From the NCBI RefSeq assembly GCF_964355755.1, contig NC_092677.1:6887001-6951000 (forward strand): DNA of 64,000 nucleotides. Direction: 5' to 3'. This document shows positions 477-36,370 of the stretch, one piece after another. The DNA comes from Antedon mediterranea. Taxonomy: Eukaryota > Echinodermata > Crinoidea > Comatulida > Antedonidae. The position numbers and the translations under genes were made by a program. Below the pieces are notes generated by a model, which was not told the origin of the DNA, did no database searches, and worked only from the letters and a program-made list of their open reading frames with translations. Numbering within the stretch: position 1 is the stretch's first letter; each line of letters begins with the position of its first letter.

Positions 477-3400
477 GTGGTGACTTCGTCAATGAAGATG
501 GTAGCGGAAGTACGAGTATTTATGGGAAATTCTTCAAAGACGAAAACTTTGACTTGAAGCATTACGGACCAGGATGGGTTGCTATGGCAAACGCCGGTAA
601 GTATATACTATGGGATTTCGACTAGACTATAAAGCTTTCCTATGGGAATTTATTGTATCAAAAGGCAACCTACTATAATTGAACGTGTCTTAAAATGAGG
701 TTATAAATATGATAAACTAATAAAAACCAGCCGAGTCCGGTGTGCCAAGCGAGTGCGTTATCAGCTACAATACATTTATCATAAAACAAAAAAGTGGTAG
801 AACTAGGCCTTCAATTACCGTAGTTTTTGAATTGAAAATTTGCAACAACAAACCACGTATACATTAGGCCTATGCATCAGCTTCTACGGCTAGCAATGTG
901 CAAATGAATTCGTTTGTAATTGACAGTTAAATAATCGCATAGGAATATTTAGGGGAAATAATGTACAGTTTGCAACTCTATAATTGCAATATTATTTCTA
1001 TTCTACAAACTTTCTCCAGGCCCAAACACAAACGGAAACCAGTTCTATATAACCTGTGATCGGATGCCTTCATTAGACGATCAAAACGTCGTTTTCGGAG
1101 TAATCACAGAGGGTCTTGATGTCCTACGAACGATTCAAGAAGTCGAAGTAGATGAAAATGACGCTCCCAAAGAAGACGTGATAATTGATGCTTCTAGGGT
1201 GAACACTGTAATGGTAAAACTGATTTATGTAAGTGAATCATATCCTCATGGAAATCAATTCCAGTCACTGCACAGATGCCAAATATACACCCTGTATAGT
1301 GTACAAATAGGCGTAATTAATTCAAGCTCTATCTACACTATCATACTTTATGTGATGTGCCCATATATTGACATGATGATGTCATATCTTACCATATTTA
1401 AGCATACCAGTACCATATTTGGGCACATCACACTCCTTTTGCCGAACTAGTTTGATTAGACAGAGCTTTAATTTGACTGGGAAAAATACTATCAACCACC
1501 GACAACAGCGCAATACTGAGTACAGTTTGTTGGACATTTCTGTAAGTAGAGGCAGAAAGGCCTCAGTAAATATGCAAGCTCCGACGCATTCATTCAGTGT
1601 TTTCAAACTACATTTTTCTGGCGATAGTAACGATTAAAATTACTACATACTAAGTTCAACCTATCTACTTTATGCTGTACATTTGGCCCTACGATAATGT
1701 ATTTATGATATCTTATAGGCCTAATGGTCAACTTATTGTATTAATAATAATTCTCGCTTTCCTCTTCTCATCATCATGTTTGCATAACTGCTAAGTGTTA
1801 TTCTGTATAAAACGTGTAATTCTCCTTTTCGACAGGATGATCGTGAGTATGCAGCTATGGTGACAAAGAAAGTGTTTTTGGACATCACTATAGATGGCGA
1901 ACTGGAAGGCCGGATCGTAATAGGTTTGTTTGGCGATGTTGCACCAAAGACGGTTGCCAACTTCGTGGCGCTCGCGGCTGAGAAAAGAGAAAAGGAAGGA
2001 TATAGGACCAGTATCTTTCATCGAATAATAAAAGGATTCATGATGCAAGGTGAATATAAGGGTTGCTGTCAAAGTCATCTCATACATTATATCGAATTTG
2101 ATTTCATAGATGGTCTTTTTTATCATTTTATGAGTGTGGGAAGAACGCAAGCCAGCCGGGACGGACCAGTAAACAGCAATCGAGTGGGATATTTCCCCAG
2201 GCCCGTATCCAGGGGGGGTGCGTTGGGTGCAGACGCACCCCCCCAAGTCCCAAAAGGTCCACTATTTCCTCGGTTGGTATTTTTTCTTGTCTTGTTTAAC
2301 TAAAGACAATATCATTATATATATACAAAATTTACATTATCAATGGTATACAAACAAAAATATGCTAATATAAAATGAAAAAATACCGGTAATTAAATTA
2401 CGGAATCTGAACTGACTACAAACTCGATGTAAAACATGCGCAGTCGATCATGTGACGACAAGCAATAGCTTAGCGCTTCATGTACGCGGTACGCGGTAAA
2501 GTGTTTGCTGGAGAAATACAGACAACTTAACCGGCGGTAAAGACGTGTCTGGAAATACAGACACTATCGAATACGGCGCCTAAACAAGGGAAGGCCAACT
2601 CAGACAGCGTCGTCGGGGAGCCTAGCCCCGTTCGCGTTCACTTCATATAGCTTCAGCGCCTAGAAAACCACGACGTTCCATTGACCGTGAGAGTACGTCA
2701 GAGGGCTAATATGCACTTTTATGCATTCATTATTGCCAGCGATCTAACTTACTACTAAACATTAGCTAGGTACGCACTTGTCTGGCGGTATCCCTTTGTA
2801 CGAATCGTTCAACGTTGGGTCGAGACGCGTGATATCAAGTTTCATCCAGGGACCAAAATGTGTAATGTAGTTATTTTCCAGACGAAGTTTACCGACGGTT
2901 ACCGAAGGGAACACGTGTACTTTTTGTCGGGGAATATAATATACAGTAAAAAGCGTTCGCGTTCACTTCGTAGCTAGCTTCAGCGCCTAGAAAACCGCGA
3001 CGTTTCATTGACCGTGAGAGTACGTCAGAGTGATATTATGCACTTTATATGCATTCATTATTGCCAGCGATCTAACTTACTACTAAACAATAGCTAGGTA
3101 CGCACTTGTCTGGCGGTATCCCTTTGTACGAATCGTTCAACGTTGGGTCGAGACGCGTGATATCAAGTTTCATCCAGGGACCAAAATGTGTAATGTGTTA
3201 TTTTCCAGGCGAAGTTTACCGACGGTTACGTCGTGTACTGCGTCGACGTACGCTACACTACAGCAAAAACGAATTATGTTAATTGTTCGTTTGTTCACCA
3301 ATTTTTTAATTTACAAGTAACCTTCTGTACCGTGAGGCATCTAAAATAAATTTTTCATCCATTACTAAACAAAAAAACATGCCATTTTCGCTTAGCCAAC

Positions 3401-4878
3401 ATTATAGCTATAGTTATTACATTTTCAATATCCTGTATGTCATGAATTTCTCACCACTCGGAAGTCCAGATGGTACGCATGCATACACCTGGGAGGAATA
3501 AACTTTTTTCCCCGACTGAAAAAGGTCTACGCTTGCGTTTTTTAAGCCTCTAGGCCTGATGTTTCCAAAGTATAAAATGCAATTTTTTGAAGACCTGCAG
3601 CTCTAGTTTTAAACATTTTCTTAGCTCAGCCCCAACAATAAAGCTGGTCATATTTCGAAGAACAAGAAGTACATTTTCCGGGACCTAACATCTCTATTTT
3701 TCAAACATTTATTAGCTCAGTCACAACCCATGATAGGGACTTTTTCATGTTTTGAAGTATAATAAGTCCAATTTCCGGGACCTCCAACTCTATTTTTCTA
3801 AATTTTCTTTGAACTTTTATTTTTTAAATTGAAAAATATGGATTGAAACAGTCATCGCGCATCGTTATTTTGCACGCAGTATTTTATTTATGCATTATAA
3901 AAAATGGAAAAAATGGCTACCCTAAATCTGATTAAAAAGACCTCAAATGACGCTAGAACGCGTTGCTTCCCCTGGACCCCCACCGGGGCCCTTGGCCCTC
4001 AGCCTAGTGATGCTCGCTTCGCTCGCATAGCCCCCTCGTCGGGGAATGTAGCCCCCGCGTCGGGAAGGTCCTGGCGCCACCCCTGCTGAGTTGGCCTCAT
4101 CATGAGAGCCTTAAGTTCTGGTGTCCATCTTTCAACTAGCCCGAGCCACAACAGAGAGTCTTACATCAGTCTTTAGAACGTCAAATAACGCAAATTTTTC
4201 CAGGGACTTCGGCCCCTGGACCCTGACCGGGGGCCCTTGGCGGCCCCCTGGCCCCCAGCCATTGTTGCTCGCTTCGCTCGCACCCCCCCATTATAAATGC
4301 TGCATACGGGCCTGTTTCCCCTAATTATTTATCTACCTATTAATTAACATCAACAATTAACAGCTTTACATTGTGTCTGTATATTTTAGGAGGTGATTTT
4401 ACAGATGGAAATGGTTATGGCGGCAGAAGTATATACGGCGAATCATTTCCAGATGAAAATTTCATATTAGATCATTATGGACCCGGATGGGTTGCTATGG
4501 CAAATGCAGGTTTGTAACATCACATGACCAAATAATATAAAACAGTTTTAATAGTGAAAATGTTGAGAAAGAATAATAGAATCAAATACATTATATATTT
4601 AGTTATGAAATCTACATATTAGTACTGTATAAATTCGTTGTGTTAATTTATCGACAGGCCCAGACACAAATGGTTCTCAGTTTTACATCATAACAGTACC
4701 GACACACTGGCTGGACGGAACGCATACTGTGTTTGGTAAGGTGCTCGAAGGTATGGATGTGGTAGAGGCAATGGAAAACGTAGAAACAGATGCTAACGAT
4801 CGACCAATCAAAGACGTTGGTATATTTGACTGTGGAGTGATTGAAGTGGACGAACCATTTGAAGTTGAGAAATTATGA
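477..4878 (+). CDS. Two-domain secreted cyclophilin (PPIase), gene 1, 5'-truncated by the window edge
   Basis: Cyclophilins catalyse cis-trans isomerisation of Xaa-Pro bonds; this type resembles the secretory-pathway cyclophilin B. Exons: 477-596, 1020-1213, 1836-2049, 4390-4509, 4658-4878 (stop TGA), giving 288 visible codons. All junctions are GT-AG with continuous frame. The first two exons hold the back two thirds of a first PPIase domain; the last three hold a whole second domain ([15 protein letters not shown], then a WLDG loop). The end [10 protein letters not shown] resembles the cyclophilin B tail. Domain 1 is unusual: the active-site loop reads [12 protein letters not shown], so the Trp equivalent to CypA W121 is Ser and H126 is Asn. 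Domain 2 keeps Trp and His. The signal peptide and first exon(s) lie upstream of the window. Positions 1-476 are intron. By analogy with gene 2 the whole protein should be about 385 residues (inferred). Confidence 0.9.
1325..1475. mobile_element. Palindromic MITE copy (GTCTACACTATC family)
   Basis: Inverted ends related to TACACTATCA...and the reverse of it surround two ...CCATATTT... units and a GGGCACATCACAC motif, ending in AGACAGAGCTTTA. The same family occurs at 17.3-17.5, 17.84-18.13 and 49.06-49.21 kb. It lies in the intron between the two cyclophilin domains of gene 1 (before 1836). Confidence 0.6.
2629..3229. repeat. Two-copy tandem duplication (~325 bp period) inside the 2.1 kb element
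   Basis: Copy 1 (2629-2902) and copy 2 (2954-3229) share nearly identical sequence from CGTTCGCGTTCACTTC through GAAGTTTACCGACGGTTAC. They differ by scattered substitutions and small indels. Both lie inside the element bounded at 2198 and 4314. Confidence 0.85.
3955..4290. repeat. Duplicated GC-rich subterminal block
   Basis: Two related stretches (about 3957-4035 and 4175-4290) each contain a run like CCCCTGGACCC, GGGGCCCTTGG and CTCGCTTCGCTCGCA. They stand out from the AT-rich surroundings and form the right part of the 2.1 kb element. Short open frames over them encode only low-complexity Pro/Arg sequence and are not genes. Confidence 0.6.
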
Positions 4879-6060
4879 CATGATCCAGAAAGCGGTTTTT
4901 TTAATCAAGAATTGACAACATGGAGTGACACAACGCGCGCGTTTCGATATTGATAAAAATGTATGACTTTTACGCGCGCGAACTTATTGTCTCAATGATA
5001 TTATATAAGCATACAATACCTTGATTAATAGTCGAATTAAAATGTTCGTGTACATTTGTATTAGGCATACCATGATTTATCATAGAATAGATAGGGTACA
5101 GACGTATCTTCTTGACTCGTAATCTATTTGGCTTTCTGAGCACAAATTATCTCACAAGATATGATCGGCTCTGGTTCACTAGAGTTAACACCGACAGACG
5201 ACAAAAAGGTGGTAAAACAAGTTTCAAAACTGACCTCCGGAAATAGAACTAACGATGGCTGTATTTTTAATTAACTGAATCCTCTCACGTGTCTTTGAAA
5301 TAAGGTATAGCTCGATCACTTATCAAGACGCTCATGTGTTCATCTTGTTTCGGTAAATATGTATATGAATTGATGTAAGAATATGAGTAGACCGATTATA
5401 TAAAAATAGCACAATATTAACTACTACTTTTCCAGACATATCGTAAAGTACGTTGACATACATTGTAATATTATCCATTCGCTCACTCAGTGGTATGCCC
5501 TACATATGTTTTTAATTAAATACCGATCACTGACCTATTAATAGTACCTCTTTTGTACAAACATTTTGTTGATGTTTATTTTGATATAATCGAGAATATT
5601 AAATTGTAATAACTTAAGATGGCTACACTGTATAAATCCTTTCTTTTCTGTTTATTGTAATTTGTTTAATTTAATTTGAAATTTGCATAGGCCTAATTCT
5701 GTCGGATAATGATATCTATAATTTACATTCCTTCTTACTCTGAAAACTTAGATAATTTTATAATAATCTAAAATATATTGTGAACTGTTATCATATCTAT
5801 GACCTAAATTGTAAATATTAATTCCAACACAATTTTATTTATATCGTCTTCAACATTTTCAGTCAAAACTACCCTCGATCTTAAGTGTTACGTTCCAGAC
5901 GTTCTATGACCTCGCTGAATTAGTAAACGGAAATAATTGTAGAGAAAATTTGACACCGACTTAGCAGCAACGACGCGACTTGCCACGTTGTACCCAAGCA
6001 AACCTCCTAGGGTTGAATTAAGTCCCACATCACTCCACCATCCGTCTTAGACCAACCAAG
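4879..6060. other. Intergenic: 3' flank of cyclophilin gene 1 and promoter/5'UTR of gene 2
   Basis: No gene-like frame or repeat recognised. AT-rich. The gene 1 poly(A) site and the gene 2 start site are presumably here but I cannot place them. Confidence 0.5.
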
Positions 6061-9000
6061 ATGTACTCAACAATGTCGGCTTCACTGCTTGTCTGTTTGC
6101 TTTCAATTCTCAATGTTATTAACGTAAGTAGTTATATAATTTGTCAGTTATCATTTCCTTTACTAATGTTTATTAACCAGAATTAAATGTATATATAGGC
6201 CTACATAATAGAGAATATGCTATTATATTATGATCAACAAGGTCGACTTCCTTCGTAATTAGGCAATCTACCATTTTAACCTATTATATTCCTATTCATA
6301 CAAATTAAATGTGCAGGTTAATACTTAATGTAAAACCACTGTTAATAAAAATATTTTTAACTGTCAGAAGTTTATTCTAAGCGTCTTTATAAAGTATTAC
6401 TGTAGGCTTGTTTCTATTGGTCTAATGTGTAACAAAAGACAGCTACGTGGCAAGGTCAACAACATTCTTTGGAGTTGTTGTTTTTTATAAATTAGAAACA
6501 GGCCCTTTAACTTTTAATAATGTTTGTGAACATTATTAATATATTTTATTAAAACAATTCACTGATATTACTAGCCAACTTGGTGCGATACGTTTGGTTT
6601 TAACAACAACCTCCCTGAGTATTGATAGTAAAGTCATACCGGGTTTCATAACACGATAGCCCCTGTTCTATCGAACAGGTGTAATAAATACTGAACTTTT
6701 TACAGAGGTCATTTGACTACTGTGAAATTACTGGAATACAGAAGAACTGTAATTACAGTAGTTTTTAGTATTACTCATCCATTATAAAACCAATTCCTAC
6801 TTTCATTCCTGAATATCATTGAGATTCCTTATTCTATCGACTTCAAATTAATAAAGCAGATGTATAAAACGGGAAAAACTCAAAACCTCATTTGAACACT
6901 AATAAAAACTAAAATGTAGGCCCCTATAGGACTGACAGGCAAGCCGGTGGTAGACCAACAGGTTTCTTATAGAACGATTTATCTTTCGAAAATGTTCTTC
7001 TTCAAACACTTTTGAATGATGTCCACCCATTCATCCTAAAAAGGAAAGCTGAATTAGCAACGTGGAAGTTTCAATTCCCGTTGGATTTCCCTCGGAATTC
7101 TAGCTTCTCTGAGGTGAAGACAAAACGTGTATGATTTATGGAAGTAGCAGTTGAACCCATTAAAAGTATAGGGTTTAAAAATAATTTAAGTTTTAATATG
7201 GTTGCCTTTCAAATACCGGGTGTTACAGTTGTATTCTTGAAGCTTCCTGGCGGCGGCAAGATGAAATCATTATCAGCATACCGTGATGATTGATACCAAT
7301 ACGAATACGAATACGAATAGAACTTTATTGCAATCAAACGAAAGATTGAAGTTTAACAAAAGCGTTTCACTCAGAAAAATAAAATGCAATATAAAAATAT
7401 AAAAGACATTTAGAAAGGTAGAACATACAATCAAAATATTAAAACAAAATTAAAATTAAATATCACTTATTATAAAAACAATAAATATATATTCAAAATG
7501 TTAAAAACAAGTTTAACTGAAAACATCAGAATATTGATATATATAATATAATCACAAAATGCACAGAACATGAATTCTAAATCGCCCGGTGATATACTGA
7601 CATTTAATTAATTAATTTAAACGATAAAGATGAGGAAATCTATGAGAATGAGAAAAGTATTCATATACAGACAAAATGAATATAGTTAAACTGTTTGTTT
7701 ATTTGTTTGACAGGCAAGGGAACAAGTTGTAACTGCAACTCAGGCCGTCACTATGAACATAGACATCGGAGGCAAGAAGGCAGGACCTATCAAAATTGCC
7801 TTATTTGGGAATGAGGTACCAAAAACGGTGAAGAACTTTGTCTCGCTGGCGGAGAAAGGTGGAAAGGAGGGCTACAAGGGTTCCCAGTTTCATAGAGTAG
7901 TCAAGGATTTTATGATCCAAGGTAAGCTAGCCTAACCGTACACTTTCAATACACATATTATTAACATTTAAATTACAGTATTTCATTGAGAACGTATCCA
8001 TCTTTTTTCCGAAGATCAATTTTCAAACTAGTCCTGAACACTAGACCTGGATTATGACAAATGTATGACTAATCCTACCTAAGCAACAAAGCAAATATAT
8101 AAAATAATATTGTTGATGTTTAATGCCGCCATGTAGCAATTCTGGCTACGCGCTTGTCATCTTCAAAATCTTTTTCATCATCACAAACATTATTGTATCC
8201 TATCGTCAGCATGGTACTGTCAATTATGAACTTGTAATACTATAGTATTTGGTTTGAATTTAGGTGGAGACTTTTTAACAGATGATGGAACAGGAAGTAC
8301 GAGCATTTACGGCAAATACTTCGATGACGAAAACTTCAACTTGAAACATTATGAAGCCGGCTGGATTGCAATGGCAAATATAGGTTCGTTGTTGTAATCT
8401 ACTTATAACTTTATAAGAGTATTTTTTCAGTTTGATAGTCAAACAGACAGATACTGACTGACAGAGATTGAGACCGACATGTTTCCTATCTTCATTTGGT
8501 TCGTTAGTACAAACAAGGTTTATCATCGTCTTGTGTATGAACTATTGATCGACTAACTAACCAACAGGGACCGATTGACACAGACTGACTGGCTAACAGT
8601 GACTGACTGACCAAACTAAGACTGATCCGACATTTTGAATTGTGGCTGGTATACGATGTATACACTCATTCTCGTTTTACAAACATTTCGGGTTTTCTAA
8701 AACCATGTATATGTTAAATTAAGTTCAAATAAAAACAGTACAAAGTATATTGTATTACCTTAATTTTCGGCTGCAACCTCAACAAGGCTTGAACGTGTCA
8801 ATGGTTACGTTGTCGAGTGATCTTAATTTGCATTCAAATGCTTTCACGTGTCTGAGTTTTACTTACTTGTTTGGATTACATTCATACATTTAATTATTAT
8901 ACACATTTTCATATTACCAGACACTATTTGGAGCCAGTAAAAACTACTATACTATACTTTCTATTAAATGATTCAAATAGCATACTTTCCTTTTTAATGC

Positions 9001-10337
9001 GGTATAGGTCCGGATACGAACGGTCACCAGTTCTACATCATCACCAAGCCCACTGATTGGCTGAATGGCCGTAACGTTGTCTTCGGAAAAGTTATTGAAG
9101 GCTTGGATGTCGTCAATGAAATTTCGTCACTGAAGACCAACGACAAAGGCAAACCTTTGGAAAAGGTCACCATCGCAGACTCTAAAGTCTCCAAGAGCAA
9201 CATGGAAGTCACTTACGTAAATAATTCTTGCATTTGTTCTATAGGCCTAATGTGAAAGCTAAATAAATCTGTTTATTTAAAATAATTTCTGTCCAAAACT
9301 GTTTACATTTAAACTCTGACCTATTATATATATTTCAGGATGATGGAGAGGTCGATGCATTAGTTACCAAAAAGGCGTTCATGGATATTAGCATAGGAGG
9401 AGAACCAAAAGGCAAAATCGTGATCGGTCTTTGTGAAAAAGTAGCACCGAAAACTATTAAAAACTTCGAAGCTTTCTTAACAAATCCCACAATCAAAGAA
9501 GGTTACAAGGGTAGTATATTCCATCGTGTTATTGCAGACTTCATGATTCAAGGTAAGATGTCCATCAAAGAGAAGTTCCACGTTTAGTTGAGTTATCGAC
9601 ATTCATTTCACTCAAAGATATTTAGCTGTGATGTGACATCATCTAGAAAACAATAACTCTTTGCTAACAAGCCTATGGCCCCTTATCTGAAATGAAGGTG
9701 AAACGTTTGGTCCGTTAAAAGTGCACGACGTTGAGTTTTGTGTATCTGATTATACTGTACATCACAAAAGTGTTTTTTCCACGTAGACAAATTGCTTATT
9801 TCTATGTTTTCTGTTGTTTCTCAGGTGGAGACTTTTTACAAGGTAATGGTTACGGCTTCACCAGTATTTACGGAGAAGTATTCGATGATGAAAACTTTAA
9901 GCTGAAGAACTATGGCGCTGGATGGGTCGGCATGGCTAACAAAGGTAATGTGTTTACATTATAAAATGGATTCAGAATGAATAATTGTCTTCAACAATGA
10001 TCAAAAAAGTTATGCTTGAATCCCTGGAATCGATATGAACTTCGGAATTCAATAGAATACACTAATGATAACAAATATTATATTTACTTAATTTAACATT
10101 TGTTTTGTCGATACAGGTGTCAATACAAACGGTTCTCAGTTTTACATAACCACAGTCAAGACGCCATGGTTGGATGGCAAACACGTTGTATTTGGTAAAA
10201 TACTCGACGGTATGGATGTAGTAAGAGCGATCGAATCTAACCCAACAGACGAGAAGGATCGACCAATCAAAGAAGTTGTTATTGAGAAATGCGGAATAAT
10301 TGAAATTGATGAACCGTTTACCGTTGAGAAAGCTTAA
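6061..10337 (+). CDS. Two-domain secreted cyclophilin (PPIase), gene 2, complete
   Basis: Exons 6061-6123, 7714-7921, 8264-8383, 9008-9216, 9339-9552, 9825-9944, 10117-10337 (stop TAA) give 384 residues; all introns are GT-AG and in frame. Exon 1 encodes a hydrophobic 21-residue leader (ATG at 6061 in a good context), a signal peptide, so the protein should enter the ER. Domain 1 begins near residue 35 and domain 2 near residue 210; each has FHRV..DFMIQGGDF (CypA R55, F60, M61, Q63 equivalents). Domain 1 has [11 protein letters not shown] (Trp kept, His126 to Asn). Domain 2 has [11 protein letters not shown], the full classical site. CypA F113 is Tyr in both. The linker ([12 protein letters not shown]) matches that of gene 1 ([12 protein letters not shown]), so the two genes are duplicates of one fused ancestor. 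The C terminus [11 protein letters not shown] resembles cyclophilin B; no KDEL signal is present. Substrates are unknown. Confidence 0.93.
7298..7345. repeat. (ATACGA)n-type short tandem repeat at a retroelement-like end
   Basis: Four near-perfect 6-bp units AATACG/AATACGA followed by AGAACTTTATTGCAATC, a layout typical of microsatellite-tailed retroelement 3' ends. Lies in intron 1 of cyclophilin gene 2 (6124-7713), which otherwise shows no recognisable content. Confidence 0.45.
8430..8630. repeat. Degenerate GACT-rich simple repeat
   Basis: Repeated GACTGACTGA, GACCGA and GACTAAC tetramers interrupt this intron of cyclophilin gene 2. No coding content seen. Confidence 0.5.
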
Positions 10338-12488: not shown

Positions 12489-14522
12489 ATGATGATGGGC
12501 AACATGCTCCATACGCTGCTTTTAATTTTAATCGTCACCATTTCAGTCATTCTCGTAAGTTGGTAAATGTAAGCTAGTTAAGTTTGTTCTTAATTTATAA
12601 CAGTGCTTCATACGGCATAGTTAACTGTACTATAATATAAACTATATGTATGTGAAACGTGATCTCATCAGGGCAGTGCTATAACATTAACCTTGTTTCA
12701 TTATGCTTTTAGGACCGTTAGTATGACTACAGATAGGACTATAGTTATATATAGCCCTATTTTACATAAAATCTAATTTACAGGAACTGCCTTTTTTTAG
12801 TCAAGTAGCCTACCCATTGACAACCATCTACCACATCAACACAATAAAAATAGACACACGTTTGTAAAACCATTGAGAAGAATTGATGGAATAAAAAAAA
12901 ATATTCAGCTTGTCAAAACGATTAACATCCAATATCAATATCTCAAAATGTAGACAATTAAAAACATGAACAATACAGTACATATAAATATAGGCCACTT
13001 TACCACAGGCAGTATATTCTTCAATGTAATTGAAAATCCTATGGTGACATTTTATTTTCTTAATTATTTCCTTAGTTTCATTCTATATTTCCTGAATAAT
13101 GTTGTATGACGCCAACACACAAATTATAAAATAAACTTTTTGTTATTCCTAGGCATCACCTGACGCCATAGTAACACATGAAGTGACCTTTGACATAAGT
13201 ATTAACGGTAAGTCAGCGGGGATACTTATAATTGGACTGTTTGGAACGATTGTACCAAGAACGGTAAAGAATTTTGTGACTCTAGCTAAACGAAGCGGAC
13301 GAAATGGTTACATTGGAACAAAATTTCATAGAGTTATTGAAGATTTTATAATACAGGGTAAGTAGGGTTGGCTCTCATCCGTGTGTTCTCACCAGTTGAA
13401 TCGATTTTAAAACCACGCGTCTATCGCGTGGGTATTCAAAAGTAGTCATTTTGGCACATATGGCGTGTAATACTTGAGCTGGGTTTAAAATGACTGGAAT
13501 ACGAATACAAAAAAAAGGCAATATATAACTAGTATTTTAAAGTAAAATGTTTTTATCCTTTCGCATATATTTTTGACCGAATGAAAAAAAAGTTCAACGA
13601 AGGCTCCACGTGCCTCAATCACCTTTTAAATCCGCGCGAATTTAAAGACGATTTGAGGACACGATATCAAATCAACTGTGTCATACAAATTACGAATACA
13701 TGACCTACGTTGTCATTACCAAAACGTGAAAAATGTCATACGTAGGTTACACAAATCTTACAAAATTGAAGTGTTACCTTTCTTTATGAACCTGGTAACG
13801 CATTTGTGTTACATCGATGTAACATCTCAGAACAAGCCTACAGAGGCGAGCATGTGTAAAGACTACATCAATGTACAGTGGTATTTGCACGTATCTGAAG
13901 TGTTTACGTGCATGTGAAAGCGGTGTAACTCGGCAATATTAACCTGTGTGAAACGTTTACAATATAAGATAACTATACCGTATGTATACGGCATAGTAAA
14001 CATTTTTATCTCTAATTTTAAGGGGGTGATTTTGACCAAAGGGATGGCTCAGGAACTGAAAGTATTTATGGAGATTATTTCGACGACGAAAACTTTGATA
14101 TGAAGCATTATGGACCTGGTTGGGTCGGCATGGCAAATAACGGTAAGTGGTTAATACTTGCGTATTGTACCTATGGTGGTGGTATAGGAAACTGTGTGGA
14201 AACTATATCTCAAGAAATAAGTGTAAAGTGTTTGCTGTGCTAATTAATACACATTAAAATTGAAACAATTTAATAATATTTTGTTATTTTTTAACTCATA
14301 GGTCCTAACACAAATGGAAACCAATTTTATATAGTCTCAAAACGAACACCTTGGTTAGACGGATCGAACGTCGTATTTGGCAAAGTTATAGAGGGGATGG
14401 ACCTAGTGAAAAGCATACAAGAACTAGACACAGACAGCCGTGATTGGCCATTAGTAGATGTGCTGATTGACGACAGTATGGTGGATTATATTAGTCCTCC
14501 GTATGTTATTGAGAAATCATAG
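12489..14522 (+). CDS. Single-domain secreted cyclophilin (PPIase), gene 3
   Basis: Exons 12489-12554, 13153-13357, 14023-14142, 14302-14522 (stop TAG) give 203 residues, close to the usual cyclophilin B length. The start is the first of three consecutive ATG codons; exon 1 encodes a 22-residue hydrophobic signal peptide ending exactly at the phase-0 splice site, as in gene 2. The PPIase core shows [15 protein letters not shown] (M61 equivalent is Ile), [11 protein letters not shown] and [12 protein letters not shown] (Trp121 kept, His126 replaced by Asn). The two substitutions suggest altered, perhaps reduced, catalytic activity (inference). Intron positions match each domain of genes 1 and 2, including the 120-nt middle exon, so this is a single-domain member of the same tandem family. 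A poly(A) signal AATAAA lies at 14573. Confidence 0.92.
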
Positions 14523-16285: not shown

Positions 16286-19200
16286 TTATTTCCAGGTGGT
16301 GTTATTCCAGGTGGATTGTGTACTACCCACTGGGCTGAATACACCTCTTCCATGACCAGGTGCTAACAGATTTCCCTGTGATGCATTTCCAAGAAGTCCG
16401 CCGGACACTGGCACTGACCCCATCAGTGGACTTGACTGCCCCAAATTTGGCCCAAATCCATGATTGGGAGACTGACTAATAGCTGACCCAAATGACTGCC
16501 CAATGGCTTGACTCATAGGTGGACCGATTGGTTGAGCAACTGGTGGAGCTATCGATTGACCACTGGGTAGTGGTATTGCTTGTCCAACTGGTAGAGGTAT
16601 TGGTTGACCAACTGGTAGAGGTATCGGTTGACCAATCGGTGGAGCTATTGGGCGGAAGCCTCCTTGACCAGGGGTTCCTATTGGTCGTTGTGACTGACTA
16701 AATGCTGGCATACCAACTGGCTTTTGGTTTGGATTGACTGGTGGTAGGATTGGTGCTGGTTCATGGTAGGTAATCTCCGTTGCTTTATAATAAGGTATCA
16801 ACTGTTGTTTCTTAACCATCTGTAATGCTAATTGTGTACTACCTGTAAACGAAAAAATTTGTTTTTACAAAATATGCAACTGCTTCTAATAATGACTAGG
16901 AAGCGTTTGATTTGCGATCACTGATGACCGACAACCAACCTCAGTAAATCAATCAATCAATGTGCCGTACCTGGACCTAGAAATCATCAAACCTGTGTTG
17001 AGATTAGGAGTGAGGACACGCGTCCTAATATTCCAGCATGCACACAGCAAACTAACATGACATCCCTAACATTGGTAAGAGTAGACATTATACAGTACTA
17101 AGTGACAAGAAAAATGTTTAACTATGAATACTCACCACATTGCAACTCAATAATTATTCCAAGCAGCAATGCTTGTGGAGGAACTTCTGATTGAGGGATC
17201 AACGAACATGCCTAAGTTGAGGAAAATTCCAGTTATTATTATACAGTATAATATCTCCTTTGTGTCATTGTATGGACACATCACAACTTGTTGTCACATA
17301 AAGTTTGATAGTGTGGACAGAGCTTTATTCAGATGAGCTTTTGACTAATAATCCCTTCATTAGAAAAGTTCCAATTTCTGTAGTGGTATTTACTTTATTC
17401 TTGCCGAAAATAGAGTCACTTTAGTCGTAAGTTCTTGTATTTAGGGCACATCACACTTTTTTGTCAAACTAGTTTGATAGTGTAGACAGAGCTTTAAACA
17501 AACATGCATATAAAATCTTAAAATTCTCTATGTGTTCTACAATAATCCTCAATAACATGATTAGCCTCATACCTGCATAATGCATCTCTTAGCCTTATTC
17601 ATTTCACCGCGCATACAGAATGCCGTAGCCAGGTTGAATGCCATTGTGGCTTTTGCAGTCTGCAGTGTCTCAGGGTACGTCTGGGCTGACGCTCCTCCTT
17701 CTGGCAATTCCCCATCTGTGTGATTTTCTGTTTTTTCCTTGTTTCCTAGTAATTTTAAACCCCAAAATATTGATTGAATACCTTTTGTAAAAAAATTATA
17801 CATACTCATTGCCTGCTCTGTAAACTAAAGACAAAAAATGTGTGATGTGCCCAAATATGGTAGTGATATGACCAAATATGGTAGTGATATGACCAAATAT
17901 GGTAGTGATATGACATCATTATACCAATATTGGGCACATAACATTTGTTACATTGTCACATAGTTTGATAGTGTAGAGAGAGCTTTAAGTTTTGTCTACA
18001 CTATCAAACTAGTTTGACAAAAAAGTATGATGCGCCCATATATGATAGTAATATGACATCATCGTGTCCATATATGGCATATCACATGTTTTGGTCACAT
18101 ACAGTTTCATAGTGTAGACAAAGCTTTAGAAGTAGTAGCACTTCACTGTCTAGTTGAATGTCTAGTGGTGGAAACTTACCTTGATCACCTTGGTATAGAA
18201 TGCTCACATCACTGACATCAACAGATAAGTGCTTGATCGCTTCTGAAATTCTGTCAAGATATATTAATGCCTCAGCGCAGTACATGTGTCCAAGATACCT
18301 ACATACAAATGTAAAAAAATGTTGTTAAAACAAAATATAGTATATAACATTGCAAAGGCAGGTTGTAATGTTAAAGGTTGATAAAATGTAACCGTTCTGA
18401 AGGTCGAGACATATCTCAAGAACAATCCATAAGAACATATTATGCATTAACAGAGTTATATCCAGAGTTGAAAAAGTGCAGAGGCAAGCCCAACTGTTTC
18501 TTAGTAATCTAAAAAATATTTTTTTTAAAGATAGTTTTGAACTTCAGACAAGGGAAATGGCTTGCCTGCCACATGCTGGATACGGCCCTGATTAATATAT
18601 AATCATTTATTAATAACAAAGATACAAATGTGCTAACTTTAGAGATCCAGAGACTTGAGGTTGACTGATCAGTTTTTCTGCATTCTCCAGAGCACAAGTG
18701 AAATCTCTAAGACCCAGCTTCACATAAGCACTACATGCAAGTATGGAACAGCGGAGACTAATCACTTCACTGCTCTTTAGAGGTTGTGATGGTGGCGCTG
18801 GTTTTAGATGGAAGTATCCTTGCTGTTTGGAACTAATTAAAAAGCATTCATTATTATTATTATTATAAACAAGAGTGATCAAAAAGCTTTGACTTCTGCC
18901 ATGAAAACAGAATCAATAATTCTTTAAATAGCCTTTGAAACAATAAATTTAAACAAGCTATTCAGTTTGAAATCTAAAGGTCAACTCAGACAGTATCATA
19001 CGAGACAAAAAAAAAAAAATTATGCCCGACGTTATCGCAGAAGGACTCGCCTTGTCGGAATTTCAACACCGACAGGTCAAGACATTTCAACAGGCCTCGT
19101 CGTATGACGTACCCTCCTGAACAATAAACGCGAGGCAAATAAATACTGTATGTTGAAAATTTGTTAAGTACACATTTTATAACCTCTTTGGCAGTGGTAA

Positions 19201-22200
19201 GACTTATGTCCCTAGGGTGATCTATATGAAAAACCTTACCTCGGTAAATCTGTGCTGTCTGTCTCAGCACTACTGGCTGATTTGGTAAGAAGTGTAGTTG
19301 AGTTTTGCCATTCACACTCCAGAAGGTTGAATGCGTTACATAGACATAAATTAGCAAAGTCGAGAGTTGCCTCTGGCATAGCAGCAGACTGGCCATTACT
19401 AGAACTGGAACAAATATAATTTACAAATCCATTGGACAGGGTATGATTATCGCAATGCATGTTACAACTACAGCACCGTAGGTCTAGGCTCAAAGCCTAC
19501 TACAAAAATAGGAAGAGCATGCTGGAAATAACCATGTCATCTACTTCCCGTGGACCAAGAAAATGGTTTTATTTTTTTTATTTCTCCCTATTGATACTTT
19601 GTTCTACTTGTTGTTCTTTATATAAGGGAATGAGAGTTTAATTTAAAACATCATTGTACTGTACTAGGCCTACTATAAAAGTACTGCAACATCTAGCACA
19701 TTGTTCTACTTCATACCTGGCATTAGTTGATGTTCCCGACACTAATACAACTTTCCTGTATATGCCTGTTCCTACAACACTCTTCACAATGCCTCGATTC
19801 TCATCGCCATTTGTAGCAACATTACGTTTAACCTGACAAAACACAAGAATTTCAAATGTAATGATGGTGGAAAATATGTTATTGATACAAGCTAAACCTT
19901 TTCTTGATGAAAACATGTGCTATTACCTCAGCTTGTTTGTCTGCTAAAATACAACACTCAGCTATCCTTAGCCAAAGCTTAGCATTACAAGGGAAGATCT
20001 GTACAGCCTCTACTAGACAATCAAATGCCGATAATGGATGGCCAGAATGCAACAGCTGTATCCCAATGTTAAACAGCAGTTCAGAGTGGCAATTAAGACC
20101 TAGAGTTTTCATTGGTCTTCCTGAGAGTTCACAACCTACAAGAACAAGAATTAATAATATTAATATGATGCCGATGTAGCGAACACAAAATGTATGTTTA
20201 GGCCTAAAGTGTCTTTGTATACCAGAGATGGGCTTATTCCTGGATAATATGCTTATATCTCAGGGATGGGTTATACTGTACCATACCTTTTTGGGTGACT
20301 TTGTACCGACTCCACCACCCATGGGCTTAATCGTGTATATTGGGTTTTTTATCTTAGGGTTATATTTTGAATGGACCTAATACCAGATCACTTGCTAATA
20401 CATCAGGGTTACCTTGTATATATACTTGGGGGTTGCTCTATGTGTGGAGATGGGCTTACCCCCTCAGGGTGGGCTTATCTATTTGGGATATAATTAAACC
20501 TAAGGTGGGCTTATTACATTATACATTAATATAACATTGGGTAAATAAAAGGAAGAAATTTACTCACCATGTTTCTTCGGTATTTCTTGCACAGCATTTA
20601 TGTTTTCCTGAATCGCTCTACGTGCGTAGAACACCGCGAGGTTGTATTTGTGCATGTGGAAATGTATACAAGCGATATTATTATAGTACATTGATGAAAA
20701 GCATTCACCCGTGAAGCGGGAATTTGATGACTGAGGGGCGCTGTTGAGGAACTTTATAGCCTTGCGATAGTTTTGTCGCAAGTACTCAAAATTGCTCTTC
20801 ATGAAAAGGGTAGTGGTAGTCTGAGGAGTAAAAAAATATAACTCAATATACATCCAACCAAAGTTACTTGCCAAGTACAGGAGTCATTTAAAGCTTAATT
20901 TGGTATTGTGTACCTACAATTAATGTTTGATAAAAATAATGCATACTTACTGAGCCTGCCGAATTCATCATGTGTTTCAATTCCCTTTTGCATGCCTTCA
21001 TTGAGCGAAGACCTAAGAAACATCTTGTTTTACACTGCAAAGAAAAAACAGACAGATATATATTATAATTCCGTCACAGTGACTTTGTGTTACAACAACA
21101 TTCTGTATGTTACTAAAGCTTGGTTCCCACTAGGACAAAACACCAACACACGTAATTTGACAAATCACAAGAGATGTATTGTAATTGGTAAAATTGTTGG
21201 CTTTAGAGATATTCCTTGCCCTGCATCTTAGTAAGTACTAAGATTTAAATGACAGTTTAAGGTAATTAAATATAATTGGTAATGCAAAATAGTATTCCAC
21301 AGGTAAAACTGAAACCTCAGCTTTATTTATAATAATATAATATTTATTGGTTACTCTCCTTTAAAACGGAGGAACACTCTCGTAACAAGAGGTTCGACCC
21401 ATACAAAATGTTTACAAAATAAATTTATACAGTTATTACAATATATATATACAGGTACAAAAAGTTAATATTGGTTCACAATTACATAATTATTAACTCA
21501 ATATATAAGGCAAGAATAAATAAAGGTGCCTTTATTATTATAAGACTGGTTGATTGGTTTTTATATATTTAAGTATTTTTAGTACATCATAGAGCAATTA
21601 CCTTATTTAATATCGGTTTCTGCATTTCATACTTCTCACTAGTAGTGTTCTCATTCTCTTTTCCAGACTGTACATCAGAACCTTGATTTTTCTTAGGGGT
21701 AGGGTCGTTGCCTAAAAGTACTTTCTCCAGGTAGTTTAAATAGAACAGTGCTCTATCTGGTTGCTGGCTACGAAGATAGGTTTCGATCAACAACAGAAGA
21801 ACACTATGGGCTAGCGTTTCAGCTGCAAAAAATAGTTACATATAGTTACATCAGAAGTAACTCAACAGAAAATGATTATTTGAGTGTAATGCATGTATTT
21901 AATTCAAAAAATAAATTGGCTCTTCTTTTACTTTTACAAGCTATGCTCCTACAATTAAGGAAAGCTATGGCCAGTTGAAATACATTATCTATGCTTGTCA
22001 GTACCTCTACAAAATATCTATTAATTCCAGAGCATTTGACAGCTTAAAACTACTCCTGTTAGGCCTACATTTTTACATTAACAATATAGAAAGTCAAATG
22101 ATGAAATATATAAATTACAACACTCAGCTCACCACCAACAATTTCATTTAAACTTAAAACATGGAAGTCTGGAGAACAATAGTCATCAACATTAACAATC

Positions 22201-32214: not shown

Positions 32215-33570
32215 TCAGTTTTTAGAATTCGAGAGAGATCAAAGATCCGATGTCATCACAGCACTGCCAACAAGACCTAACTGGTTAAAAGCCAACGCGG
32301 CTGTGTATCCTGCGATGCATTAGGTTGATCAAGCGGTCACCGTCTGTTCCAAACTTGTTTACCAAACTGAACTCAAGATATAAGTTTTCCGTGCGCTACT
32401 AATATACGCTTGTCGTGAGCTCTATTGTATGCTAATCGCTAAGTTCATCGGTGATCGATAACATATATGTTTTTGTAAGTATTTAGTCTTATCACATGCA
32501 TAATGGAAACCGTAGCAATTAGATCTTATTGCATCATCGCAGCCAATGGACCGACAATAAATTTGGTCAAAATAGGCCTACTTTTTTGTATGTATCTAAA
32601 AATAACTTTGTTGGAAACTTGAAGCTAGGCCTTCCACCAGGATATGGTTGAAATTGGCCGTGTTAAAAAGACCCATGAAATATATTATAAAGAATAGTTA
32701 TTAGTAGATATCTTAAAACGAGACACTTTAAATCGGTTTTTATTATAGACCAAGGAGGCAGACCTAAGCTGTACTCTTCATAAACGATTACGTAATATTA
32801 TCGAGGTACTTTGAATTAGAAATGAAAATGCCCAGGTATGCATTAACCTACGACACGACATGACCTCATGCTTCGTTGCACAATCAAGAAAATACATGCT
32901 ACAACATTAGTCTACACCGGGGTGTAGACTTAATTATTAGAGGGGTTTTATTTTAGGAATACACTCAGTAAAATATATTTTATAGAATTATGTGATGCAC
33001 TAATACTGTAGTTGTTACCTTTATTTCGTATTTATTTGGTCTAGGCTAGGCTACCCATAGTCTACTAGACTAGAGAGGCGGAGATCCGTCTGCCTAGAGT
33101 ATTTATATTTATTACTATTATTAGTATTAGGCCTAGGCTAGCCTCTAGTAGACCATGCATGGAGTAAAGAATAATTATGAGTAGACGTTTGCTCTAGCAA
33201 GGCTAGTAGTAGCCTACTACTAGGCCTACTTACACTTTACTAGTATTAGTATTAGGCCTAATCTAGGCAATTAAATTAGTGAAAGAAAGTGGGGATCTTA
33301 CTATAGGCCTAGCCTTGTTAAGTTACTAGCCCTGGCTTAGCTATTATATATATTTTAATACAGTAAATAAACCTGTCCAGAAAAAGGCAACTTTTTTAGA
33401 TACTTTTTATAAAAGATGTTCACTGTTGGTGTTGCTGCTTTAACATATTCTCTTGTAATTTTTAATACATCATGTAGTAATTATGAACAGTAGTTTGCTT
33501 ATTTTATTTAAACTTTCATTAACAGTTTTTATTAATTCTGCAGAATATAATTCTAGCAAGACAACAGAGA
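32215..33570. promoter_or_regulatory. Divergent promoter region shared by the ML-domain gene (-) and ACSF3 (+)
   Basis: Start codons are 1.36 kb apart. The ACSF3-proximal part (33.04-33.33 kb) is again rich in TAGGCCTA and CTAGGC words, as in the CNOT10/TRIQK interval. No gene or clear core promoter element seen. Confidence 0.45.
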
Positions 33571-36370
33571 ATGAATATACAAAGCATTTCCCGGATGTTT
33601 AATAATAGAACAGCAGAATTGATCTTGATATCCTTGAGGCCATGCATGTGTCGTTCTTTTGCATCTGACTCAACAAAACCAGTGTTCTTTCAAACGCTCC
33701 GAGAAAAGTATGGAGACAAAGTAGCCATTGTGGATAACATAGGAGAGCACTCATACAACAAAATCTTATCTTTAAGCACCAGTCTAAGCCAAGGGATTTT
33801 AGCAACAGCTAAAAGAGATCCTACTCTAAAAACATCTACATTCCTTTTGAATGGGGAAAGAGTTGCTTTCTTGTGTCCAAATAATGTGACATACGTTGTT
33901 GCACAATGGGGTACTTGGATGAGTGGGGCAACTGCTGTCCCGCTTTGTAAATCACATCCACCAAGTGAACTTGCATATTTTCTGAATGACTCCGCAGTAT
34001 CCCTAGTTGTCACGACAGCTGACTACGTTGACAAAGTTAGAGAAGTCGTCAGATTGTTAGGAGTTAAACATATTGTTCTTGATGAAGAAAAAATTGCTTC
34101 AAATTATACTGATAATAATTTGATTAATGACTTTGCAACATTAACTGAAGGTAAATTTAATTCCGACTCATTTGCTGAAAAAAGGTTAATAACAGAAAAA
34201 TGGCGACAAACCAAATGGAAAAACCGTGCTGCACAGTTGATATACACTAGTGGAACAACAGGACGACCAAAAGGTGTGTTATCTACATTTGGTAACATCC
34301 AATCACAAGTGTCAATGCTGTTGGACTCATGGGAATGGTCTAATAAGGATGTTGTACTGCACGTTCTTCCATTACATCACGTTCATGGTATCATTAATCT
34401 GTTAGTATGTCCTTTATGGTGTGGAGCAACATGTGTCATGCTGTCTGAATTTAATGCAGATAAGGTTAGAATTTCTTGTACACAATTAAATGTTCACCAT
34501 TAAATATTCACCTTTATGTTTTAAGTACTTTACTTAAAGTAATAAGGATAACAAGATATCACTTTGCAATGTTAAATTTTTTTTTTTTTTAAATTAACTA
34601 ATTGTCTTTTGTCTTTGTATATGTATAGTATATATGTACTGTATGTCTTTTATTAGTAATACGGTAAACAAAGAATACTTTCTGTGCCTTTTTCCCTTCA
34701 AGGTTTGGAGCTATCTTCTTGGGGAAACTGAATCAAAAATAAATGTCTTTATGGCAGTTCCAACAATTTACGCAAAATTATTACAAGCGTACAACTCTAA
34801 ATTTGGAAGTGTGGTAGGTGGAAGAACTACAGAATTCATCAAGGCAACTTTACAAAACAATATTAGGTATGAAACAATGAATAGATTGAAAGGAAATAAG
34901 AGTCAGAAAGAGAGATTTGATTGTCGCAAAGATTTTTAAGTTGTTCAGTTGTGAAACAAAGCAACAGAAAAATTTACTTATATTCGGAATGATCTTGGTT
35001 ACTAGATTGATGGTATCAGGCTCGGCTGCATTACCGCAGCCAATCATGGAACAGTGGGAGAAGGTCACAGGTCATCGATTGTTAGAACGATACGGAATGA
35101 CAGAGTTTGGTATGGCACTTTCTAACCCACTAAATGGTCTCCGCGTTCCAGGTAAATTTTATGTTTGCTTCACACGATATTCATCAAATTAGCGGGACAG
35201 AAAATATTTTACAAAATGGACTATCTCCATGAAAGATTACAAATGGATACGAAGTGTCAGTTCTTTATCACTTTTTATTTTCAGGATCTGTTGGAACTCC
35301 ACTACCATCCGTCCAGGTAAGATTAGTGACCTCCGAAGGCAAGATTACTGCAGAAGGTAACTCTGTGAGAACTACAGTGACACCAGGAATGGAAGGTGTA
35401 GCTGGTGAACTACAGGTTAAAGGCCCAAATGTGTTTAAGCTGTACTGGCAGAGACCGGATGCAACTGAAGACTCTTTTACTGAAGACGGATGGTTTAAAA
35501 CGGGTTAGTAGCCAAATACTCATCATCATCACCTACCTGTTTACTAGTACAAACCCATCATATACTGTATACAAATCGGTCCTTGAAAGAGTTTGTATGT
35601 GGAAAATCATTTTCTAAGTTAAATATGTGTAGTGGAGCTGTAGCTTGGTGGTTAACATGCTTCCCTACCAATCTAGCCAGGGTTCAATCATGACCTAATG
35701 CCAGGGTTGTAACTCATGACTCTTTCAGCTCCACTCTCCCAAGTCTCAAATGAGCACGATACATTATAAAATAGTTTATCCATCTTGTAATTGATTGATT
35801 GGCTGTTTATTTATAAAAAAAAACAAATTTGCTAAACATAACCATCTACTTGAAAAACTGTCAATGTTTCAATGGATTCATACCTAGGCATGAATTTAGT
35901 CCCTCCCTACATCATCACAATTTTTTTTTAATGCCTCTAGGTTTAATACTAGTTCACCACTAGGTTCATAATCCATGACTTGTCTTTTAACAGGTGACAC
36001 TGTGATGTATGAAAATGACATGTACCATATATTGGGTCGTACATCTGTCGACATCATCAAAAGTGGTGGTTACAAAATAAGCAGTCTGGATGTGGAGCGA
36101 CGTCTTCTGTCGCACCCCAGCATTGAAGAATGTGCAGTGGTTGGTTTGCCAGATATGACATGGGGTGAACGTGTGGCAGCCATCATCAGTCTAAAGGAAG
36201 ACTGTCAGATGACCCTCAGAGTTCTACGAGATTGGTGCCATAATAAGATGCCGTCGTATGTCATCCCAACGGAGTTAAAGATACTGCCAAGTCTTCCTAG
36301 AAATGTGATGGGAAAAGTGAACAAAAAGGAATTAGTTGTGAAAGTATTTGGAGAAGAATCTTTGCCATAA
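33571..36370 (+). CDS. ACSF3: Malonyl-CoA/methylmalonyl-CoA synthetase, mitochondrial
   Basis: Acyl-CoA synthetase family member 3 activates malonate (and methylmalonate) to the CoA thioester, feeding mitochondrial fatty-acid synthesis and clearing malonate. Exons 33571-34464, 34703-34866, 35006-35151, 35285-35503, 35994-36370 (stop TAA); 599 residues, human 576 from memory. Seen: AMP-binding P-loop [11 protein letters not shown] at residues 225-235, [88 protein letters not shown] and the C-terminal MGKVNKKEL with the expected catalytic lysine region. These match ACSF3 rather than generic acyl-CoA ligases. The N-terminal ~30 residues are rich in Arg, Ser and hydrophobics without acids before position 14, consistent with a mitochondrial presequence. 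An acceptor-like AG just upstream suggests a 5'UTR intron. Confidence 0.96.
35631..35820 (+). mobile_element. tRNA-derived SINE, family 2, in the last ACSF3 intron
   Basis: An A-box-like TAGCTTGGTGGTTAACATG is followed by a B-box-like GGGTTCAATCATG. An unrelated body and an A-rich tail ending near 35820 follow. A second diverged copy is at 46.8 kb in reverse orientation. Confidence 0.6.

Follow-up and report, generated by a model that had tools for sequence, protein, structure and literature searches.

Two neighboring genes on the plus strand of contig C8, termed B and C here, each encode two complete cyclophilin domains within one open reading frame, and these domains belong to two lineages, class 1 and class 2, that differ in their active sites. 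From the gene models and the domain phylogeny we consider it probable that both products enter the ER and are likely secreted, that the genes arose by the joining of a class-1 gene to a class-2 gene followed by duplication of the joined gene, and that domain 2 is catalytic and domain 1 mainly a binding domain. The window analyzed is a stretch of 64,000 nucleotides (C8:6887001-6951000), to which all coordinates given without a contig refer, and the models of the gene cluster were read from the window together with 10 kb of upstream sequence. A profile search with PF00160 covered the whole genome (354 Mb in 18 contigs) and gave 40 exon-level matches, a run of which lies on the plus strand of C8 (6880695-6901471). 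The run corresponds to four complete cyclophilin genes in tandem, in the order A, B, C, D, with splice models in which all introns are GT-AG. Gene A (212 aa, one domain) lies immediately before the window (C8:6879419-6882271); gene B encodes 382 aa with two domains, starting upstream of the window at C8:6884240 and ending at position 4878; gene C, also with two domains (384 aa), is wholly inside the window (6061-10337); and gene D has one domain (203 aa; 12489-14522). A first-pass annotation of this DNA had described B and C (its genes 1 and 2) as tandemly duplicated, secreted two-domain cyclophilins, and this description is borne out by their open frames, their hydrophobic first exons, the two PF00160 stretches in each and their place in a four-gene tandem cluster, to which the single-domain genes A (upstream) and D (12489-14522) are added here.

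In all four genes a separate hydrophobic exon stands first and is spliced to the next at phase 0, and the maximum Kyte-Doolittle 11-mer of this N-terminal exon (2.5-3.3 in all four) points, as judged by hydropathy, to a signal peptide. The exon-level repetition seen in the first pass, with a 120-nt middle exon and constant phases, holds for every cassette of the cluster: each domain is encoded by three exons, the first of about 205-226 nt, the second of exactly 120 nt and the third of 209-221 nt, with phases 0/1/1/0. Specifically, in gene B the signal-peptide exon (C8:6884240-6884296) and the exon after it (C8:6885447-6885654) both lie upstream of the window; these and all the exons that follow are on the plus strand and are given as splice models. 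Domain 1 of gene B continues with the 120-nt middle exon (477-596; GGDF...MANAG, also matched by Pfam) and a last exon (1020-1228) that ends in ...VKLIY at the linker donor. Beyond a linker intron of 607 nt (1229-1835), domain 2 is encoded by a first exon that opens with the linker (1836-2049), a 120-nt middle exon (4390-4509) and a last exon that ends at the stop codon (4658-4878). Gene C has the same arrangement, with a signal-peptide exon (6061-6123, assigned from hydropathy), the three exons of domain 1 (7714-7921, the 120-nt exon at 8264-8383, and 9008-9216, ending in NMEVTY at the linker donor), a linker intron of 122 nt (9217-9338) and the three exons of domain 2 (9339-9552, opening with the linker, the 120-nt exon at 9825-9944, and 10117-10337, ending at the stop codon). 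Gene D consists of a signal-peptide exon (12489-12554), a first mature exon (13153-13357, also matched by Pfam), a 120-nt middle exon (14023-14142) and a last exon (14302-14522) that keeps the ancestral tail PPYVIEKS and stop. A full-length PF00160 match above the cut-off occurs twice in each of the proteins B and C, which score 313.6 and 318 bits, and once in each of A and D. Intron 5 of gene B carries an element with terminal inverted repeats (2198-4314; CAGGCCCGTATCCAG / CTGCATACGGGCCTG), flanked on both sides by TTTCCCC and containing an internal direct repeat of about 270 nt; it has many genomic copies, the best of which is 100% identical over 803 nt, and this identity indicates that the element moved recently.

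Comparison of the paralogous domains gives 68-82% identity at second codon positions vs 32-43% at third positions, and dS between the compared pairs is undefined or above 2, so that synonymous divergence is saturated. The much higher identity at second positions indicates that both domains of both genes have long been kept by selection, and such long-lasting constraint argues against pseudogenes or an artefact of assembly; an artefact was also rejected on the ground of the 36-50% residue differences between paralogous domains. B and C are confirmed as a real, well-formed two-domain variant of the known cyclophilin family.

The junction between the domains is alike in the two genes, with exons of 209 nt and 214 nt meeting at phase 0 and a Tyr followed by two Asp residues (Y, then DD). 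The first pass had placed this junction at 9216/9339 in gene C, in agreement with our splice model, and had correctly regarded the linkers of B and C as homologous. In gene B it had chosen 1213/1836; splicing at 1213 preserves the frame, but a donor at 1228 (TAT/GTAAGT, the slash marking the exon end) fits the consensus better and gives a 209-nt exon as in gene C. Single-domain tails follow the pattern ...P-[Y/F]-V-[V/I]-E-K-x-stop, and the donor of the fused genes falls exactly between the tail Y and V, which in gene D are followed by I-E-K-S and stop. The aligned codons are CCG TAT GTT ATT GAG AAA TCA TAG in D, ATT TAT/GTAAGT in B and ACT TAC/GTAAAT in C. On the downstream side, the sequence that follows the junction is homologous to the N-terminus of the mature gene A product (SDENVETLVTKK in A). 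With a donor in the tail codons and resumption at a mature N-terminus, fusion would need only that donor plus the loss or skipping of one exon. No convincing signal-peptide first exon, or remnant of one, was found in the linker introns of B (607 nt) and C (122 nt), and comparison of the linker introns with first introns found no homology. Similarity between introns is almost nil, and deletion and read-through splicing are therefore indistinguishable as the route of joining.

The linker introns also contain potential polyadenylation-type motifs, AATAAA at 9262, 46 nt past the linker donor of gene C, where it may yield a transcript with domain 1 only, and ATTAAA at 1633 in gene B. Together with the finding that a retained intron would terminate domain 1 of gene C after 12 extra residues, they could be taken to mean that domains 1 and 2 reside on separate transcripts and that no fused protein is made. 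We regard this as improbable, since domain 2 lacks both a separate start and a separate signal peptide, the normal tail and stop are missing from domain 1, and an in-frame phase-0 junction is common to B and C.

A maximum-likelihood tree of the six cluster domains with PPIB, PPIC, the secreted cyclophilin genes on contig C6 and CypA places B1, C1 and D in class 1 (support 100/98) and A, B2 and C2 in class 2, the latter with support (76/87) under the usual threshold. Read by class, the chromosomal order of the four genes is 2, 1-2, 1-2, 1. The six domains may or may not form a single clade apart from PPIB (AU p 0.16). The first-pass annotation had attributed the two-domain architecture to a three-exon cassette that was duplicated in frame within a gene, before the gene itself was duplicated. 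The cassette is symmetric, with phase 0 at both ends, and could have been copied in frame, but such an origin predicts that B1 and B2, or C1 and C2, are sisters, and the AU test rejects both pairings (p 1.5e-6 and 6.3e-4, respectively) and also a tree that unites the four fused domains in one clade (p 0.0016). The resemblance of the linker to the mature N-terminus of gene A likewise speaks against it, and we now hold this origin to be highly improbable.

Given two domain lineages and the rejection of sister domains within a gene, the fused genes were most likely formed by the joining of a class-1 gene to a class-2 neighbor. We propose that a D-like class-1 gene was joined to an A-like class-2 gene downstream of it. 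The upstream tail codons for [Y/F]-V would have become a phase-0 splice donor, bypassing the stop codon, the signal-peptide exon of the downstream partner would have been lost and its mature exon would have supplied the linker; duplication of the fused gene would then have given B and C. The simplest history we can write starts from a tandem pair 2,1 that became 2,1,2,1; its two inner members, 1 and 2, would then have fused, and the fused gene would have been duplicated. That fusion preceded gene duplication, as the first pass had it, is favored by the shared junction and by the groups B1+C1 (81/73) and B2+C2 (79/77), although these are of moderate to weak support and the alternative pairings B1+D, C1+D, A+B2 and A+C2 are not rejected (AU p 0.16-0.29); we take the single-fusion order to be moderately supported. 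The surviving pairings would fit a history in which the same fusion happened twice, independently in B and in C, from adjacent class-1/class-2 pairs, and the tail codons TAT GTT of gene D suggest that a donor site is easily reached. Such a double event seems to us unlikely yet conceivable, as the exons of 209 and 214 nt and the flanking residues of the junction are identical in B and C and both weak sister groups favor a single fusion.

The alternating order could also stem from unequal crossing-over in an array of fused genes, in which case the two-domain gene would be ancestral and A and D would be products of later fission, not unfused relics. We judge this unlikely, as fission would have had to restore two things: in D the PPYVIEKS tail and stop, a homologue of the ordinary single-domain tail, and in A a signal-peptide exon. 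If the joining of neighbors is the right account, both presumed unfused partners adjoin the fused genes, and gene order and splice junctions record the steps of the fusion.

The two classes differ at the reference set of active-site residues (R55, F60, M61, Q63, A101, F113, W121, L122 and H126). The class-2 domains keep Arg55, Phe60, Met61, Gln63, Trp121, Leu122 and His126, and their set is complete save for F113Y in B2 and C2. All three class-1 domains (B1, C1 and D) have H126N and F113Y, to which B1 adds W121S, M61I and a Ser at 57, and D adds M61I. In human PPIA the substitution W121Y abolishes activity, loss of cyclosporin binding goes together with natural residues at position 121 that are neither Trp nor His, and H126 varies slightly among human cyclophilins (PMC2911226); because of that variation, H126N alone need not abolish activity. 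Our prediction is that B1 lacks isomerase activity, C1 is a weak enzyme and B2 and C2 are active ones. Most likely the product is an ER or secreted cyclophilin that is bivalent, pairing a catalytic domain with one that mainly binds. Domain 2 would be the catalytic isomerase; domain 1 would bind proline-containing segments and isomerize them poorly (H126N, F113Y) or, in B1 with W121S, not at all, such that a secretory or matrix client might be held at two sites while one domain catalyzes. Proline-rich clients would presumably be acted on in the ER or outside the cell. As a tentative extension, to which we give only limited credence, an old class-1 lineage with a modified site may have come to serve as the client-binding head of a fusion whose other half is an active class-2 isomerase, yielding a secreted, bivalent and dedicated foldase or matrix protein of a kind not described in animals. 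A fusion of this type, in which the two active sites are unequal, offers a direct test of whether a tethered weak or dead PPIase domain alters client choice in the secretory pathway.

Among known proteins, the best solved-structure matches of gene B are PPIB and PPIC, and B and C are an unusual variant of a common enzyme and not a new kind of thing. The cluster shares with PPIB and PPIC the signal peptide, domains 52-66% identical to PPIB, a PF.VEK-type tail and, in class 2, the active site, and it differs from them in the two domains of B and C, in the altered class-1 active site and in intron positions that depart from those of the PPIB gene of this genome. Several PPIase domains in one secretory-pathway protein are also found in the ER FKBPs FKBP9 and FKBP10, which are of a different fold, whereas the only family matched by the B and C proteins is that of the cyclophilins, PF00160. 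In human, PPIB and PPIC each combine a signal sequence with a single PPIase domain, and the human proteins PPIL2, PPIL6 and SDCCAG10 contain inactive cyclophilin domains in which Trp121 is substituted (PMC2911226), as it is in B1; unlike B and C, these three are not described in that paper as secreted two-domain PPIases. In the open-access literature we found no secreted animal cyclophilin with two PPIase domains, which is weak evidence of absence. Sea urchin cyclophilin-1 (cyp1, Glean3:07484) is specific to skeletogenic cells and a major matrix protein of spicule and tooth (PMC2909932, PMC2614417). If the host is an echinoderm, the cluster might be related to it. Papers on the skeletal proteomes of sea star and brittle star make no mention of isomerases in their main text.

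Elsewhere in the genome, the PF00160 matches revealed no further fused pair. An ordinary PPIB orthologue lies on contig C11 near 15.226 Mb, with introns that cut between AQR and GKEGY, between GTGG and KSIYG and between KGM and DIV; those of the cluster cut between MIQG and GDF and between MANAG and P, and these different positions mark the C8 genes as an additional group with a distinct exon-intron structure. Two further tandem secreted cyclophilins, 92% identical to each other, lie on the minus strand of C6 near 2.57 Mb (C6:2568001-2585000), and their active-site loop reads QMGD at the place of QGGD. Outside the cyclophilin genes, the window contains exons of an acyl-CoA synthetase-like gene on the plus strand (33523-36370; AMP-binding and AMP-binding_C by Pfam) and, on the minus strand (16286-19900), exons that by eye resemble CNOT10, a single one of which was tested and had no Pfam match. 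Intron 2 of gene A contains a tandem repeat of the type GATGATGATG(C/A)TCGGAC (L031 4230-4430).
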